64,000 bases of DNA from positions 232,001 to 296,000 of the forward strand of contig QCNP01000001.1 of NCBI GenBank assembly GCA_003210095.1. The letters are read 5' to 3'. A model generated the notes under the pieces. It made no database searches and had not been told where the DNA came from. It saw nothing but the letters and a program-made list of their open reading frames with translations. Each line of letters starts with the position of its first letter. The stretch's first letter is position 1. Origin of the DNA: Pelagibacteraceae bacterium AG-426-E17 (GTDB taxonomy: Bacteria; Pseudomonadota; Alphaproteobacteria; Pelagibacterales; Pelagibacteraceae). Below are positions 18,066-24,056 of this stretch, piece after piece. The position numbers were made by a program, and so were the translations under genes.

Positions 18066-18617
18066 ATGGAAAATGTAAAAATATTACAAATTCAAAAAAT
18101 TTTTAAAATTTTTTTTATTATAATTTTCGGTTCACTGTTAATAACTCTGTCAGCAAAAATAAAAATTCCATTTTATCCAGTGCCAATGACTATGCAAACT
18201 TTTATGATTATTTTAATAGGAGCTTCCTTTGGATACAAAATTGGATTAGCAACTGTAAGTGTTTATTTATTTGAAGGTATAATTGGTCTACCCGTTTTTT
18301 CGAATTCTCCTGAGAAAGGTACAGGATTAGTATATTTCACAGGTCCAACAATGGGTTATCTTTTAGGATTCCTTGGTGCTGTTTTTTTTGCTGGATATTT
18401 TAAATATAACAAAAATCCTTTTTTAAATTTTATAAAAATAGTTTTTTCTATTTTCACAATTTATTTACTAGGCATTGTATGGTTGGGATATTTAATTGGT
18501 TGGGATAAACCAATATTTAAATTAGGTGCGGAACCTTTTCTTTTAGCAGAATTTTTAAAAATAATAATTCTTACAATTCTTATTCCTCATTTATCTAAAT
18601 TAAGAAAAATTATCTAG
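18066..18617 (+). CDS. bioY: Biotin transporter BioY (ECF S-component)
   Basis: A 183-residue integral membrane protein with about six helices. KIPFYPVPMTMQTFMIILIGASFG and the SVYLFEGIIGLPVFS segment are BioY signatures, and GPTMGYLLGFLGAVFFAGYF is the third conserved block. It takes up biotin alone or with an energising ECF ATPase and transmembrane module (BioM/BioN). Neither module is adjacent; the preceding gene encodes an ATPase of a different ABC class, so partnership with it is not supported. Biotin dependence would suit a streamlined marine oligotroph (inference). Its TAG stop overlaps the 3' end of the opposite-strand regA gene by 8 bases. Confidence 0.92.
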   Translation: MENVKILQIQKIFKIFFIIIFGSLLITLSAKIKIPFYPVPMTMQTFMIILIGASFGYKIGLATVSVYLFEGIIGLPVFSNSPEKGTGLVYFTGPTMGYLLGFLGAVFFAGYFKYNKNPFLNFIKIVFSIFTIYLLGIVWLGYLIGWDKPIFKLGAEPFLLAEFLKIIILTILIPHLSKLRKII

Positions 18618-19182
18618 GTGATCTTTTAGACAAAATTCTTTGTAATGTACGTCTGTGCATTTTAAGTCTCCTTGCAGTTTCAGATACGTTTCTATTACAC
18701 AGTTCAAATACCCTATGAATATGTTCCCATTTTACTCTGTCAGCAGACATTGGGTTTTCAGGTGGATCCGCTTTTTTGTTGGGATTCGCTAATAAGGCTT
18801 TTTCTACATCATCTGCATCTGCTGGCTTAGCGAGATAATCTATAGCACCTTGTTTAATAGCTGCTACAGCTGTTGGTATGTTTCCATATCCAGTGAGCAT
18901 TACTACTCTGCTCCCAGAGTTAGAATTTTGAATTTCTTTTACAACCTCTAGTCCATTTCCATCACCTAGTCTTAAATCTACAACTGCAAAAGCTGGTTTA
19001 TTTGATTTTACGGCATCAATTCCTTTTTTTACTCCCTCAGCTTGAAAAACTTTAAAACCCTTTTTTTCCATCGCTCTTGCAAGTCTTTCTCTAAAGGGAT
19101 TATCGTCATCTACTATCAGAAGAGATTTGTCCTCAAATTCGTTTATATTTTTAACCTTATCTGTCTCCATTGTAGAGGTCAT
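18610..19182 (-). CDS. regA: Response regulator, ActR/RegA/PrrA type
   Basis: A 190-residue two-domain regulator. The receiver (residues 18-130) has LLIVDDDNPFRERLARAM, phospho-acceptor Asp in FAVVDLRLGDGNGLEV, MLTGYGNIPTAVAAIKQGA, and Lys in DYLAKPADADD. A short linker leads to a Fis-type helix-turn-helix (VSETARRLKMHRRTLQRIL) that is near-invariant in RegA/ActR/PrrA. These activators control redox-dependent energy genes in alphaproteobacteria. No RegB/PrrB sensor kinase gene is adjacent. The ATG at 19182 gives MTSTMETDKV; the second Met four codons on (19170) is an equally possible start. Convergent overlap with bioY. Confidence 0.94.
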   Translation of the reverse strand: MTSTMETDKVKNINEFEDKSLLIVDDDNPFRERLARAMEKKGFKVFQAEGVKKGIDAVKSNKPAFAVVDLRLGDGNGLEVVKEIQNSNSGSRVVMLTGYGNIPTAVAAIKQGAIDYLAKPADADDVEKALLANPNKKADPPENPMSADRVKWEHIHRVFELCNRNVSETARRLKMHRRTLQRILSKRSPR

Positions 19183-19338: not shown

Positions 19339-20517
19339 ATGAAAAAATTTAAATCGGTTTATGAACTAATAACTGAGTTAAAACCATCTGATCCAGTTTA
19401 CTGCATCAGAAAGAAATCAATAAAAAAAGCTTCAAAATACTTTATAAAAAATTTCCCGGGTAAAGTTTTATACGCAGTTAAAACTAATCCGAACATAGCA
19501 GTTATAAAAACATTAATTGAGAGTGGTATTAGAAACTTCGATGTAGCATCTATTAAAGAAATCCAAGATATAAAAAAGATAGACAATTCTTTAGAGTGCT
19601 CGTACATGCACACTGTAAAAAGTAGAGAGGACATAAGGGATGCATATTTCAATTTTGGGGTAAAAGCATTCTCGCTGGATACTAAGGATGAACTAATCAA
19701 AATTCTAGAGACTACTAATCACGCAAATGATTTAGAATTATATGTAAGAATTGCAGTTTCAAATGAGCACGCAGAAATTGATTTATCAAAAAAATTTGGT
19801 GCTAATACTAACGAAGCACCAGGTCTAATTAGACTTACAAACCAATATACAAAAAAATTAGGGTTAAGTTTTCATGTCGGTTCTCAATGCATGCATCCTA
19901 TTTCTTATACAAAGGGAATATCCGAAATTGGGAATTTAATTAAGAAAACAAAAATTATGCCCGAGGTAATAAATATCGGTGGAGGGTTTCCAACTATTTA
20001 TCCTGACTTAATACCACAAACTTTAAATAATTACTTTAAGGAAATAAAAAAATCATTAAATAATCTTAAGTTAGATAAGTTACCAAAAATAATATGTGAA
20101 CCTGGTAGAGCGCTGGTAGCAGAGTCTGGCTCAACAATTGTAAGAGTAAATTTAAGAAAAAAACAAAAACTATATATTAACGATGGTACGTATGGATCTT
20201 TATTTGATGGAGGTGTTCCAAATATAGTTTATCCATCTAGACTTATTACAAATGGAAGAATGATATCAAAAAAAATGACAGCATTTGATTTTTATGGTCC
20301 AACATGTGATAGCATGGACTATATGAAAGGTCCTTTTATACTCCCAAACAATATAAAAGAAAATGATTACATAGAACTAGGACAGTTAGGTGCTTATGGT
20401 CTTACATTTAGAACTCAATTTAATGGTTTTTACTCTGATAAAATTTTTGAAGTTGAGGATGAGCCAATAATGACTATGTATGATAAAGATAAAAGCAAAA
20501 GTATTCTGGTTGCTTAG
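19339..20517 (+). CDS. PLP-dependent decarboxylase, fold type III (ornithine decarboxylase-like)
   Basis: A 392-residue enzyme of the alanine-racemase-fold decarboxylases. PLP-binding Lys48 is in LYAVKTNPN. GLSFHVGSQ is the PLP-stacking block, INIGGGFPT and CEPGRALVAESG bind the phosphate, and GPTCDSMD places catalytic Cys323 at the dimer interface. Length and GPTCDS loop fit bacterial ornithine (or ornithine/lysine) decarboxylase making putrescine; the much longer SpeA arginine decarboxylase and LysA are less likely. It opens a cassette with a deoxyhypusine synthase homolog and two agmatine-to-putrescine enzymes, so an arginine specificity should be kept in mind. A strong Shine-Dalgarno site precedes it. 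Confidence 0.9.
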   Translation: MKKFKSVYELITELKPSDPVYCIRKKSIKKASKYFIKNFPGKVLYAVKTNPNIAVIKTLIESGIRNFDVASIKEIQDIKKIDNSLECSYMHTVKSREDIRDAYFNFGVKAFSLDTKDELIKILETTNHANDLELYVRIAVSNEHAEIDLSKKFGANTNEAPGLIRLTNQYTKKLGLSFHVGSQCMHPISYTKGISEIGNLIKKTKIMPEVINIGGGFPTIYPDLIPQTLNNYFKEIKKSLNNLKLDKLPKIICEPGRALVAESGSTIVRVNLRKKQKLYINDGTYGSLFDGGVPNIVYPSRLITNGRMISKKMTAFDFYGPTCDSMDYMKGPFILPNNIKENDYIELGQLGAYGLTFRTQFNGFYSDKIFEVEDEPIMTMYDKDKSKSILVA

Positions 20518-20523
20518 AGTTCT

Positions 20524-21558
20524 GTGAAAAAAAACCTAGGTCATAACAGTAAAAAAGATTTTCTCAATAAACCAGTTGAACACATTGATATAACAAAGTT
20601 TGATGCAAGGCCTATAATTTCTTCAATGGAAAAGATGTCTTTCGTATCTCGAGAGACAGCTAATGCTGCAAAAATTTATAATGAAATGCTAAGTGAAAAA
20701 GATTGTACAATTTTTTTAACTTTAGCAGGCTCAACCTCTGCAGCTGGGTGTATGCATATTTATAGAGATTTAGTTAAATATAATATGGTCGATGCTATAG
20801 TCGCAACCGGAGCATCAATCATTGATATGGATTTTTTTGAGGCCTTGGGATTTAGGCATTATCAAGGCTCTCAGTTTCAAAATGATACTGAATTAAGAAA
20901 AAATTATATTGATAGAATATATGACACTTATATTGATGAAGAGGAACTGCAACATTGTGATAAAGTAATTGGAGAAATTGCTGATTCACTTGAACCACGA
21001 CCCTATACGTCGAGAGAATTTATTTGTGAGCTTGGTAAATATTTAAAAAAAAATGCAAAGAAAAAAGGTTCTTTAATTGAAATGTCATATGATTATAACG
21101 TGCCTATATTTTGTCCTGCATTCACAGACTCAAGCGCTGGATTTGGGTTGGTGATGCATCAAGAAAAAAATCCAAAAAAGCATATGACTATTGATTCAAT
21201 TAAAGAATTTAGAGAATTAACCGAGATAAAGATAAAATCAAAAGGATCTGGTTTATTGATGATTGGTGGAGGAGTGCCAAAAAATTTTATTCAGGATACA
21301 GTTATTTGTGCAGAGCTGCTTGGGAAAGAAGTGGAAATGCATAAATATGCTATTCAAATTACAGTTGCGGACTCTAGAGATGGAGCGTGCAGTAGTTCAA
21401 CTTTGAAAGAGGCTAGTTCTTGGGGCAAAGTTGATACCTCTAAGGAACAAATGGTTTTTGCTGAAGCTACGAGTGTATTGCCTCTTATAGTGAGCAATGC
21501 TTACCATTGTGGCGAATGGAAAAAAAGGGTTAGAAAAAAATTTTCTAAATTATTTTGA
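20524..21558 (+). CDS. Deoxyhypusine synthase-like protein
   Basis: A 344-residue member of the deoxyhypusine synthase (DHS) superfamily (NAD-dependent aminobutyl transfer from a polyamine). Visible blocks are IFLTLAGSTSAAGCMHIY, DAIVATGASIIDMDFFEALG, FRHYQGS, LLMIGGGVPKNF, ITVADSRDGACSSSTLKEA and SSWGKV, whose Lys302 aligns with the active-site Lys of DHS. Bacteria lack eIF5A, so the protein cannot be assumed to make hypusine; bacterial homologs are thought to transfer aminobutyl groups between small amines, giving homospermidine or guanidino analogues. It begins with GTG six bases after the decarboxylase stop. The neighbouring polyamine genes support a small-molecule substrate. Confidence 0.88.
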   Translation: MKKNLGHNSKKDFLNKPVEHIDITKFDARPIISSMEKMSFVSRETANAAKIYNEMLSEKDCTIFLTLAGSTSAAGCMHIYRDLVKYNMVDAIVATGASIIDMDFFEALGFRHYQGSQFQNDTELRKNYIDRIYDTYIDEEELQHCDKVIGEIADSLEPRPYTSREFICELGKYLKKNAKKKGSLIEMSYDYNVPIFCPAFTDSSAGFGLVMHQEKNPKKHMTIDSIKEFRELTEIKIKSKGSGLLMIGGGVPKNFIQDTVICAELLGKEVEMHKYAIQITVADSRDGACSSSTLKEASSWGKVDTSKEQMVFAEATSVLPLIVSNAYHCGEWKKRVRKKFSKLF

Positions 21559-21562
21559 TAAA

Positions 21563-22444
21563 ATGACAAAAAAAACCAAGATTGGTTTAATTCAATTAAA
21601 AATTTCAAAATCTTTAAATTTAAACATTAAAAAAGCTATTTCTAAAATTAGAGTTGCATCAAATAAAGGGGCTAAAATTATATGTGTTCCTGAACTATTT
21701 TTGTCTCAATATTTTTGTCAAACTGAAAAACATTCAAACTTTAAATTAGCCGAAAAAATTCCAAATAAAACAACTGATATTTTTTGTAAAATTGCGAAAG
21801 AATTGTCTGTTATTCTAATTTTATCTTTATTTGAGAAAAAGATTTCTGGAATGTATCATAATACGGTTCTCATAATTGACGAAAAAGGAAACATAATTAA
21901 TAAATATAGAAAAATGCATATTCCCGATGACCCAGGCTATTACGAAAAATTTTATTTTGCACCTGGCGATCTTGGTTTTAAAAGTACCAAAACCAAGTAT
22001 TGCAATATTGGATCCCTTATTTGTTGGGACCAGTGGTTTCCTGAAGCGGCAAGAATAACAGCTTTAAAAGGTGCAGATATTATTTTTTATCCTACTGCAA
22101 TAGGGTGGCACCCTAAAGAAAAAAAGAAATTTGGAAAAAAACAATTAGATTCGTGGATTACCATCCAAAGGTCACATGCAATTGCAAACGGTGTATATGT
22201 TGCAGCAATAAACAGAGTCGGTATTGAACGAAACGGTAAGACCAAAATTGATTTTTGGGGCAACTCATTTGTTTCGGATCCAAGTGGAAAAATTATTGGT
22301 AAATTGGGAAGTAAAAAAGATGGTATTTTAATTACGGAAATCGATTTAAAGAAAGTTGAAAGCACTAGACAACATTGGCCTTTTTTGAGAGATAGAAGAA
22401 TTGATGCATATAAAAGTATATTAGAAAATCCTAAAGATGAATAA
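21563..22444 (+). CDS. aguB: N-carbamoylputrescine amidase
   Basis: A 293-residue nitrilase-superfamily hydrolase converting N-carbamoylputrescine to putrescine, CO2 and ammonia. The catalytic triad is visible: Glu in ICVPELFLSQYF, Lys in YRKMHIPDDPGYYEKFYF and Cys in LICWDQWFPEAARI. The latter two blocks match N-carbamoylputrescine amidases closely, as does the C-terminal STRQHWPFLRDRRIDAY. I chose the ATG at 21563, four bases after the preceding stop; an earlier ATG at 21497 would add 22 non-homologous residues inside the previous gene. It overlaps the agmatine deiminase gene by 8 bases. Confidence 0.94.
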   Translation: MTKKTKIGLIQLKISKSLNLNIKKAISKIRVASNKGAKIICVPELFLSQYFCQTEKHSNFKLAEKIPNKTTDIFCKIAKELSVILILSLFEKKISGMYHNTVLIIDEKGNIINKYRKMHIPDDPGYYEKFYFAPGDLGFKSTKTKYCNIGSLICWDQWFPEAARITALKGADIIFYPTAIGWHPKEKKKFGKKQLDSWITIQRSHAIANGVYVAAINRVGIERNGKTKIDFWGNSFVSDPSGKIIGKLGSKKDGILITEIDLKKVESTRQHWPFLRDRRIDAYKSILENPKDE

Positions 22445-23507
22445 AGCTATAAAAACTTGTAGCTTTATAATGCCTGGTGAATTTGAAAAACAAAAATCAG
22501 TATGGATTGTTTGGCCACATAATAAAAATGATTGGCCAGGATATTTTAATAGTATTCCTGGAACTATTTCAAATATAATCTCTAAATTATCAATTTCACA
22601 AAAAGTAAACTTAATAATTCAAAAAAATGAAAATAAAAATGAAATTATAAAACTATTAAAAATAAAAAGATTTAAGAAGCCTAATGTTAAATTTTATAAG
22701 ATCGATACAGATAGAATATGGATTAGAGATTTTGGTCCAATTTACGTGAAAAATCAAACTACTGGTAAAAAAACAATTCTTAACTTTGAGTTTAATGGGT
22801 GGTCGAAATATCAAAATTTTAAAAAGGATAACAAAATTCCTTCAAAAATATGTAAGCTGACTATGATACAAAAAGTAAATCCATATATAAATTATAATAA
22901 AAAAAAATATTACCCTGTTCTGGAGGGTGGAGCATTTGATGTAAATGGAAAAGGTTCAGTTTTATTAACTAAAGAATGTCTGTTAAGTAAAAAACAAGAG
23001 AGAAATCCAGGCTTAAAAAAAAAAGATTATCAGTTATTTTTAGGAAAATATTTTGGTATTAAAAACTTTATATGGCTCAATAGGGGTATTGAAGGTGATG
23101 ACACTCACGGCCATATAGATGATATATCAAGATTTGTTTCAAAAAATACAATAATGACTTGTTTTGAGACAAATAAAAAAGACAAAAATTATAGAACATT
23201 AAATGAGAATTTAAAAATTTTAAAGAAAGCGAGAGATATAAAAGGGGAAAAATTTAGGATAATCAAAATTCCAATGCCAAAAGCGAAATATATTAATAAA
23301 GTACGAGTTCCAGCAACTTATCTAAACTTCTTTATTGGAAATAAAATAGTACTTCTTCCGATATATAACGATAAAAAAGATATTAAAGTTTTAAAAATTT
23401 TTAAAAAATTTTTTAGTAATAGAAAAGTCATTACAATTGATTGTAGTAAATTAATCTGGGGTTTTGGCGCAGTACATTGTATGACGCAACAAGAACCGGA
23501 TATTTAA
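22437..23507 (+). CDS. aguA: Agmatine deiminase
   Basis: A 356-residue peptidyl-arginine-deiminase-fold enzyme converting agmatine to N-carbamoylputrescine and ammonia, the substrate of the enzyme encoded just upstream. MPGEFEKQKSVWIVWPH is the typical N-terminus. DRIWIRDFGPIYV holds catalytic acidic residues, LEGGAFDVNGKGSVLLTKEC and EGDDTHGHIDDISRFV the central Asp/His blocks, and GFGAVHCMTQQEP the nucleophile Cys348. The last motif is usually GGGNIHCITQQ, so the glycine-rich run is degenerate here, but the HC.TQQ core is intact. An insert around residues 110-150 is Lys/Asn-rich. It abuts the opposite-strand transporter gene with no spacer. Confidence 0.92.
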   Translation: MNKAIKTCSFIMPGEFEKQKSVWIVWPHNKNDWPGYFNSIPGTISNIISKLSISQKVNLIIQKNENKNEIIKLLKIKRFKKPNVKFYKIDTDRIWIRDFGPIYVKNQTTGKKTILNFEFNGWSKYQNFKKDNKIPSKICKLTMIQKVNPYINYNKKKYYPVLEGGAFDVNGKGSVLLTKECLLSKKQERNPGLKKKDYQLFLGKYFGIKNFIWLNRGIEGDDTHGHIDDISRFVSKNTIMTCFETNKKDKNYRTLNENLKILKKARDIKGEKFRIIKIPMPKAKYINKVRVPATYLNFFIGNKIVLLPIYNDKKDIKVLKIFKKFFSNRKVITIDCSKLIWGFGAVHCMTQQEPDI

Positions 23508-24056
23508 TCAAATAGGTTTTAAAATTCCCAACAGTAAACGAAAAGGTACTAACATAATTAAAGCTATTAATATTTTTACACCTAAATCTCCAAGTGATAA
23601 TGTTACCCAAGGTACTCCAGTTCCGTAAAACGATATAGAAAAGAATAAAAACGTATCTACAGTTGATCCGATTAACGAGGAAAATAATGGAGCAACAAAC
23701 CATGTTTTCCTTCTCAATTTGTCAAAAACTTGTACATCTAATAATTGAGCTATAATAAATGCTGTTCCAGATCCAATGGCTATTCTAATAGAGATTAAAT
23801 CTGAAAAATTTGTGGAAAATAGGAGCGTAAATAATATTCCAATTGTAAAACCAAAATAAACAATTTTTCTAGCTATTAATTTCCCAAAAGATCTATTTGC
23901 TAAATCCGTAATTAGAAAAGCAACAGGATAACTAAAAGCTCCATAAGTTAATATTTCCTCTAATCCATAATACTTAACGGGAAACTGAACTAAAAAGTTT
24001 GAAATTAGAACTATTAATCCCATTAAAAGGGATAAAGTTAAGAACACTTTATTCAT
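23508..24056 (-). CDS. VUT/YhhQ-family transporter, probable queuosine precursor importer
   Basis: A 182-residue membrane protein with about six helices. LTYGAFSYPVAFLITDLANRSFG is the VUT-family signature (COG1738), with IRIAIGSGTAFIIAQLLDVQVFDKLRR and GSTVDTFLFFSISFYG as the other conserved blocks. E. coli YhhQ imports preQ0/preQ1 for the tRNA modification queuosine. The specificity here is by family transfer, and no queuosine synthesis gene is in the window. The start ATG overlaps the rpmB stop by one base. Confidence 0.82.
   Translation of the reverse strand: MNKVFLTLSLLMGLIVLISNFLVQFPVKYYGLEEILTYGAFSYPVAFLITDLANRSFGKLIARKIVYFGFTIGILFTLLFSTNFSDLISIRIAIGSGTAFIIAQLLDVQVFDKLRRKTWFVAPLFSSLIGSTVDTFLFFSISFYGTGVPWVTLSLGDLGVKILIALIMLVPFRLLLGILKPI

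Follow-up and report, generated by a model that had tools for sequence, protein, structure and literature searches.

The window, a 64,000-nucleotide stretch of the genome of Pelagibacteraceae bacterium AG-426-E17, contains a run of four genes on one strand that are separated by 6, 4, and −8 bases. The first gene (19339..20517, + strand) encodes a 392-residue PLP decarboxylase of the alanine-racemase fold (PF02784/PF00278), which is homologous to ornithine decarboxylase (ODC) and is most likely an arginine decarboxylase (ADC). It is followed by a gene with a GTG start (20524..21558, + strand) for a 344-residue protein of the deoxyhypusine synthase (DHS) superfamily (PF01916, 325 bits), predicted to be of the caldomycin synthase (CdmS) type. 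The third gene (21563..22444, + strand) encodes a 293-residue AguB-type N-carbamoyl amine amidohydrolase of the nitrilase fold (PF00795, TIGR03381-like), and the fourth (22437..23507, + strand) a 356-residue AguA-type guanidine deiminase of the agmatine deiminase family (PF04371, 350 bits; TIGR03380-like). An alternative in-frame ATG at 21497 would lengthen the AguB reading frame and make it overlap the DHS gene. On the left, the run is flanked by a divergent gene for an ActR/RegA-type response regulator (18610..19182, − strand; NF033791, 312 bits), which is kept at the same place in the Pelagibacteraceae loci that extend to it, and on the right by a convergent gene for a YhhQ-type queuosine-precursor transporter (23508..24056, − strand; TIGR00697). 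The packing and families of the four genes are as described in the earlier note, and the residues it named, Lys48 and Cys323 of the decarboxylase and Lys302 of the DHS-like protein, located in the motif SWGK, were verified in the sequence. Rfam, promoter, and terminator scans gave no signal above chance, and the whole window (1-64000) contains no tRNA or tmRNA gene detected by ARAGORN and no Rfam family at the gathering threshold. The source genome has a size of 1.15 Mb and is 99% complete. The nearest named loci all belong to Pelagibacteraceae/Pelagibacterales, that is, to SAR11, one of the ocean's most abundant groups of bacteria.

The decarboxylase is 75% identical to its homolog at locus L124, from Ca. 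Pelagibacter ubique strain SCGC AAA797-I19. Counted from its second start, the L124 protein has 394 residues, which agrees with the length given for WP_075506504, the protein that was assayed. According to Li et al. 2023 (PMC9992855), the decarboxylase of SCGC AAA797-I19 was active on arginine only, and SAR11 ODC homologs decarboxylate arginine with undetectable activity on ornithine and lysine. In HMMER alignments to solved lysine and ornithine decarboxylases, the acidic residue of the ODC Asp332 type is replaced by proline in the window protein. The altered LFDAG/LFDGG loop is common to the SAR11 homologs and to pattern-matched decarboxylases from alphaproteobacterial operons. The protein thus displays the two marks of a SAR11 ODC-derived ADC, in that it is closely homologous to an enzyme that was assayed and has lost the Asp332-type residue, and by sequence comparison it is most likely an L-arginine decarboxylase supplying agmatine. 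The earlier note was puzzled by the lack of a SpeA-like enzyme and suggested either imported agmatine or a decarboxylase with arginine activity. Since the SAR11 "ODC" homologs are arginine-only in PMC9992855, the second suggestion is supported and the puzzle is resolved; agmatine import as a necessity was dropped, because ADC activity is known in homologs. The decarboxylase and the agmatine route, which had appeared redundant, are consecutive steps.

The DHS-like protein passes the NCBIfam caldomycin synthase model NF002699 with 574.1 bits (cut-off 500). It fails the SpeY-related model NF001980 (189.8 bits, cut-off 450) and the models of true DHS, TIGR00321 (232 bits, cut-off 304), NF002006 (304 bits, cut-off 434), and NF002630 (237 bits, cut-off 364). 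The residues proposed to form the active site of CdmS are S67, E136, D143, F204, L286, E293, and K299 (PMC10981699). By the published numbering, these positions fall at 70, 139, 146, 207, 289, 296, and 302 of the window protein, with a constant offset of +3, and six of the seven residues (S70, E139, D146, F207, E296, and K302) are identical; the only mismatch is Cys289 in place of L286. Residues D243 and D316 of human DHS are replaced by Phe207 and Cys289, and CdmS has Phe and Leu at these positions. The six identical residues are invariant across 81 SAR11 sequences and nearly invariant in 16 diverse sequences, one of which, a cyanobacterial plasmid protein, has Leu at position 289. The CdmS-type residue set is missing from a Natrialba DHS and from two other DHS-like proteins of alphaproteobacteria. 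A true deoxyhypusine synthase is ruled out by the model cut-offs and by the replacement of Asp243 and Asp316, and the earlier statement that hypusine is not the product stands. The protein is predicted to be a CdmS-type, NAD-dependent agmatine homocoupling enzyme.

Two further groups of DHS-like genes were observed. A CdmS-type gene (592 bits on NF002699) is located beside rocD on plasmid A of Trichormus variabilis (L047:5998-7041), in a group of nitrogen-fixing cyanobacteria for which SpeY is otherwise known. A different alphaproteobacterial subtype (L043:6802-9483 and L042:6703-7668) reaches the cut-off of no DHS model, and its residues at the two pocket positions are Asn and Tyr; the L043 gene adjoins SpeB-like and SpeE-like genes.

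The catalytic motifs of AguB (Glu-Lys-Cys) and AguA, including the C-terminal HCMTQQEP of the latter, are intact. The best solved relatives of AguB include structures of N-carbamoylputrescine amidohydrolase, and the best solved relative of AguA is 1xkn. AguB scores 307.6 bits on TIGR03381 and AguA 236 bits on TIGR03380, below the NCBIfam equivalog cut-offs of 410.25 and 381.8, respectively, and therefore these models do not certify the exact substrates of the two enzymes.

An ADC-DHS pair with a guanidine-removing module after it is found in 80 of 80 Pelagibacteraceae loci, which are the best matches to the window protein rather than a random sample; two of them are truncated and miss only the ADC end. 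Because of this recurrence, the gene set is non-random, far beyond chance. The order polA, (ABC gene), bioY, regA, ADC, DHS, X, yhhQ, rpmB, pyrD, lysS, trkH is common to the 80 loci as far as their contigs extend, with few departures. Slot X is occupied by a SpeB-type ureohydrolase (SpeB2) in 57 loci and by AguB and AguA in 23, one of which ends after AguB at the end of its contig; no locus has both modules and none has neither. The tree of five flanking genes (73 rows) requires at least nine module changes, eight of them forced by well-supported branches, and the tree of ADC and DHS requires ten. In three close pairs of loci with differing modules (L051/L052, L112/L120, and L060/L055), the flanking DNA is 90–94% identical on both sides, and the similarity drops at the DHS stop and returns at the 3′ end of yhhQ, which is the right border of the exchange. 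The AguA proteins of SAR11 constitute one family with deep branches, as do the SpeB2 proteins, and on this account both modules seem to be old alleles that recombination has moved around and not repeated new imports. We found no report in the literature of a recurrent in-place exchange of the guanidine-removing step. Loci L063 and L080 contain an extra 750–810 bases at the slot, after SpeB2 in L063 and between DHS and SpeB2 in L080; these are possible exchange remnants or inserted genes. Locus L128 has two adjoining ADC-like open frames 5′ of DHS-AguB-AguA, possibly a duplication or a frameshift split.

The model NF002699 is passed in 18 of 289 alphaproteobacterial genomes, a count from which weak DHS-like matches of a different subtype in genomes G258 and G187 were excluded. 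An AguA-family gene is present in nine of the 18 (background rate 99/289). The other nine, without AguA, have an ADC-DHS operon that also contains an arginase/agmatinase-family gene directly 3′ of DHS, and none of the 18 genomes combines an NF002699-type DHS with a lack of guanidine-removing enzymes. Such company is expected if agmatine is the substrate, and it also fits conversion to putrescine first. Most of the 18 genomes have two alanine-racemase-fold decarboxylases (three in two genomes, one in two). Those of AG-426-E17 are LysA and the pathway decarboxylase, and no SpeA or OKR-type decarboxylase was found in this genome, nor was a convincing bacterial HSS, for which there are weak dehydrogenase-type matches only.

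The earlier note considered that a complete spermidine pathway separate from the cassette might exist. A SpeD-SpeE fusion is indeed present, but its independence is not borne out, since this branch needs putrescine, which the cassette can supply. The fusion gene (L045:4236-5276; C1 ~839235-840275 of the AG-426-E17 genome) is part of a methylthioadenosine salvage run, with apt, mtnP, mtnA, and a class II aldolase-type gene just 5′ of it, and such a fusion is already known from SAR11 (PMC11107197). A second agmatinase-family gene (L023:1477-2433; C1 ~61.4-62.4 kb) overlaps an aldehyde dehydrogenase gene, and its product is possibly not an agmatinase but a guanidinobutyrase.

We consider it fairly probable that the four-gene operon encodes a pathway from arginine to homospermidine by coupling of agmatine and subsequent removal of the guanidines. 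ADC would convert arginine to agmatine, the activity shown for its homologs. By analogy with CdmS, NAD would take a hydride from one agmatine, and Lys302 would hold the guanidinobutyl unit as an imine for transfer to a second agmatine, with 1,9-bis(guanidino)-5-azanonane as the product. AguA would then deiminate the guanidino ends and AguB hydrolyze the resulting carbamoyl ends to yield homospermidine. Additionally, the two enzymes should convert free agmatine to putrescine for the SpeD-SpeE fusion. In SAR11 relatives, a single SpeB-type ureohydrolase would do the same net job with the release of urea. Among the options of the earlier note, the transfer to agmatine with AguA and AguB stripping the guanidino ends is thus the one favored by the residue matches and by the CdmS precedent: CdmS of T. 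thermophilus (TTHA1570) uses agmatine alone and couples two molecules into caldomycin, which a SpeB-type ureohydrolase of the same organism was shown to convert to homospermidine (PMC10981699). Counting against the coupling of agmatine, the action of AguA and AguB on caldomycin would be without known precedent, and homospermidine was only low in SAR11 assays (PMC8437039). Furthermore, norspermidine feeding raised homospermidine in strain HTCC7211 (PMC8437039), a rise that would not be accounted for by an enzyme strictly specific for agmatine. The published SAR11 metabolite data are ambiguous.

In the alternative that survives best, AguA and AguB convert agmatine to putrescine, and the DHS-like protein, with the function of SpeY, joins two putrescines into homospermidine, so that the module swap would merely exchange two known agmatine-to-putrescine routes. 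This reading has a real though lesser chance of being correct. The classical role of AguA/AguB and of agmatinase is in agmatine metabolism, and putrescine is needed anyway for the SpeD-SpeE fusion, as Pelagibacter-type enzymes did not aminopropylate agmatine (PMC11107197). Such a pathway was proposed for Zymomonas (PMC8594446), and PMC9992855 draws it for Pelagibacter and Fonsibacter, with the DHS-like protein acting on putrescine as a homospermidine synthase. However, the DHS-like protein reaches 190 bits on NF001980 (cut-off 450) versus 574 on NF002699, and its pocket residues are of the CdmS type. The use of putrescine also predicts that the enzyme occurs in alphaproteobacteria with ODC only, whereas guanidine-removing enzymes are present in each of the 18 genomes found. 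It is very unlikely that the DHS-like enzyme has a broad specificity, moving aminobutyl and guanidinobutyl units among amines including imported spermidine and norspermidine, in an operon mainly for polyamine recycling or catabolism: SAR11 imports and metabolizes many polyamines, Dys2 was proposed as a candidate, and homospermidine rose in HTCC7211 upon norspermidine feeding, but the authors of PMC8437039 favored SpeE for the norspermidine-linked activity, and the enzyme is strictly accompanied by ADC and guanidine-removing enzymes, which points to agmatine made from arginine as its dedicated input.

The SpeY-related model NF001980 is a poor fit to the window protein, which sets the latter apart from cyanobacterial SpeY. 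Burnat et al. in 2018 reportedly described SpeY of Anabaena as a DHS homolog that is needed for homospermidine and uses putrescine; the likeness to the window is that of a DHS homolog in bacteria that possess an agmatine route. CdmS of T. thermophilus shares with the window protein the DHS superfamily, the matching pocket residues (by the published numbering), and the company of an agmatine source and guanidine removal, and its product is the one named in the NF002699 model. In contrast to Thermus, where a ureohydrolase removes the guanidines (PMC10981699), AguA and AguB would take its place in the window. Zymomonas mobilis, in which homospermidine is the major polyamine, has a decarboxylase-DHS pair (ZMO1020/ZMO1019), agmatine deiminase, and N-carbamoylputrescine amidase; unlike in SAR11, AguA and AguB (ZMO1369/ZMO1370) are in a separate operon, and the pathway was drawn through putrescine, unproven (PMC8594446). 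The same SAR11 genes appear in PMC9992855 as ADC-DHS(SpeY)-NCPAH-AIH or agmatinase clusters of Ca. Pelagibacter ubique and Ca. Fonsibacter ubiquis, and the contrast of agmatinase with AIH and NCPAH is noted there for two genomes. The DHS-like protein is labeled as putrescine-type in that text, which, in its available parts, does not describe the recurrent exchange or the CdmS-type residues. Thus, the cluster and the arginine decarboxylase are already known in SAR11; what is added here is the assignment of the SAR11 enzyme to the caldomycin type and the recurrent exchange of the module.

We tentatively propose that AguA and AguB strip both guanidines of caldomycin, and that SpeB2 and AguB-AguA are two ancient interchangeable alleles that recombination exchanges at one fixed slot, perhaps under selection from the supply of nitrogen or metals. 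The SpeB2 allele would release urea and probably depend on Mn, and the AguB-AguA allele would release ammonia and is probably metal-free. Urease is absent from four of four SAR11 genomes tested, and therefore the urea from the ureohydrolase would be lost and only AguB and AguA would recover the guanidino nitrogen, a possible reason to keep both alleles. If the proposed pathway is correct, the SAR11 "deoxyhypusine synthase" (Dys2) needs renaming, and models of SAR11 polyamine metabolism should run via agmatine and a guanidino intermediate. Furthermore, one chromosomal slot would represent a natural experiment in which two unrelated enzyme systems have been repeatedly substituted, with the guanidino nitrogen leaving as urea in one and recovered as ammonia in the other. 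Selection by nitrogen or metals on a single metabolic step would thereby become testable in culture and in metagenomes.
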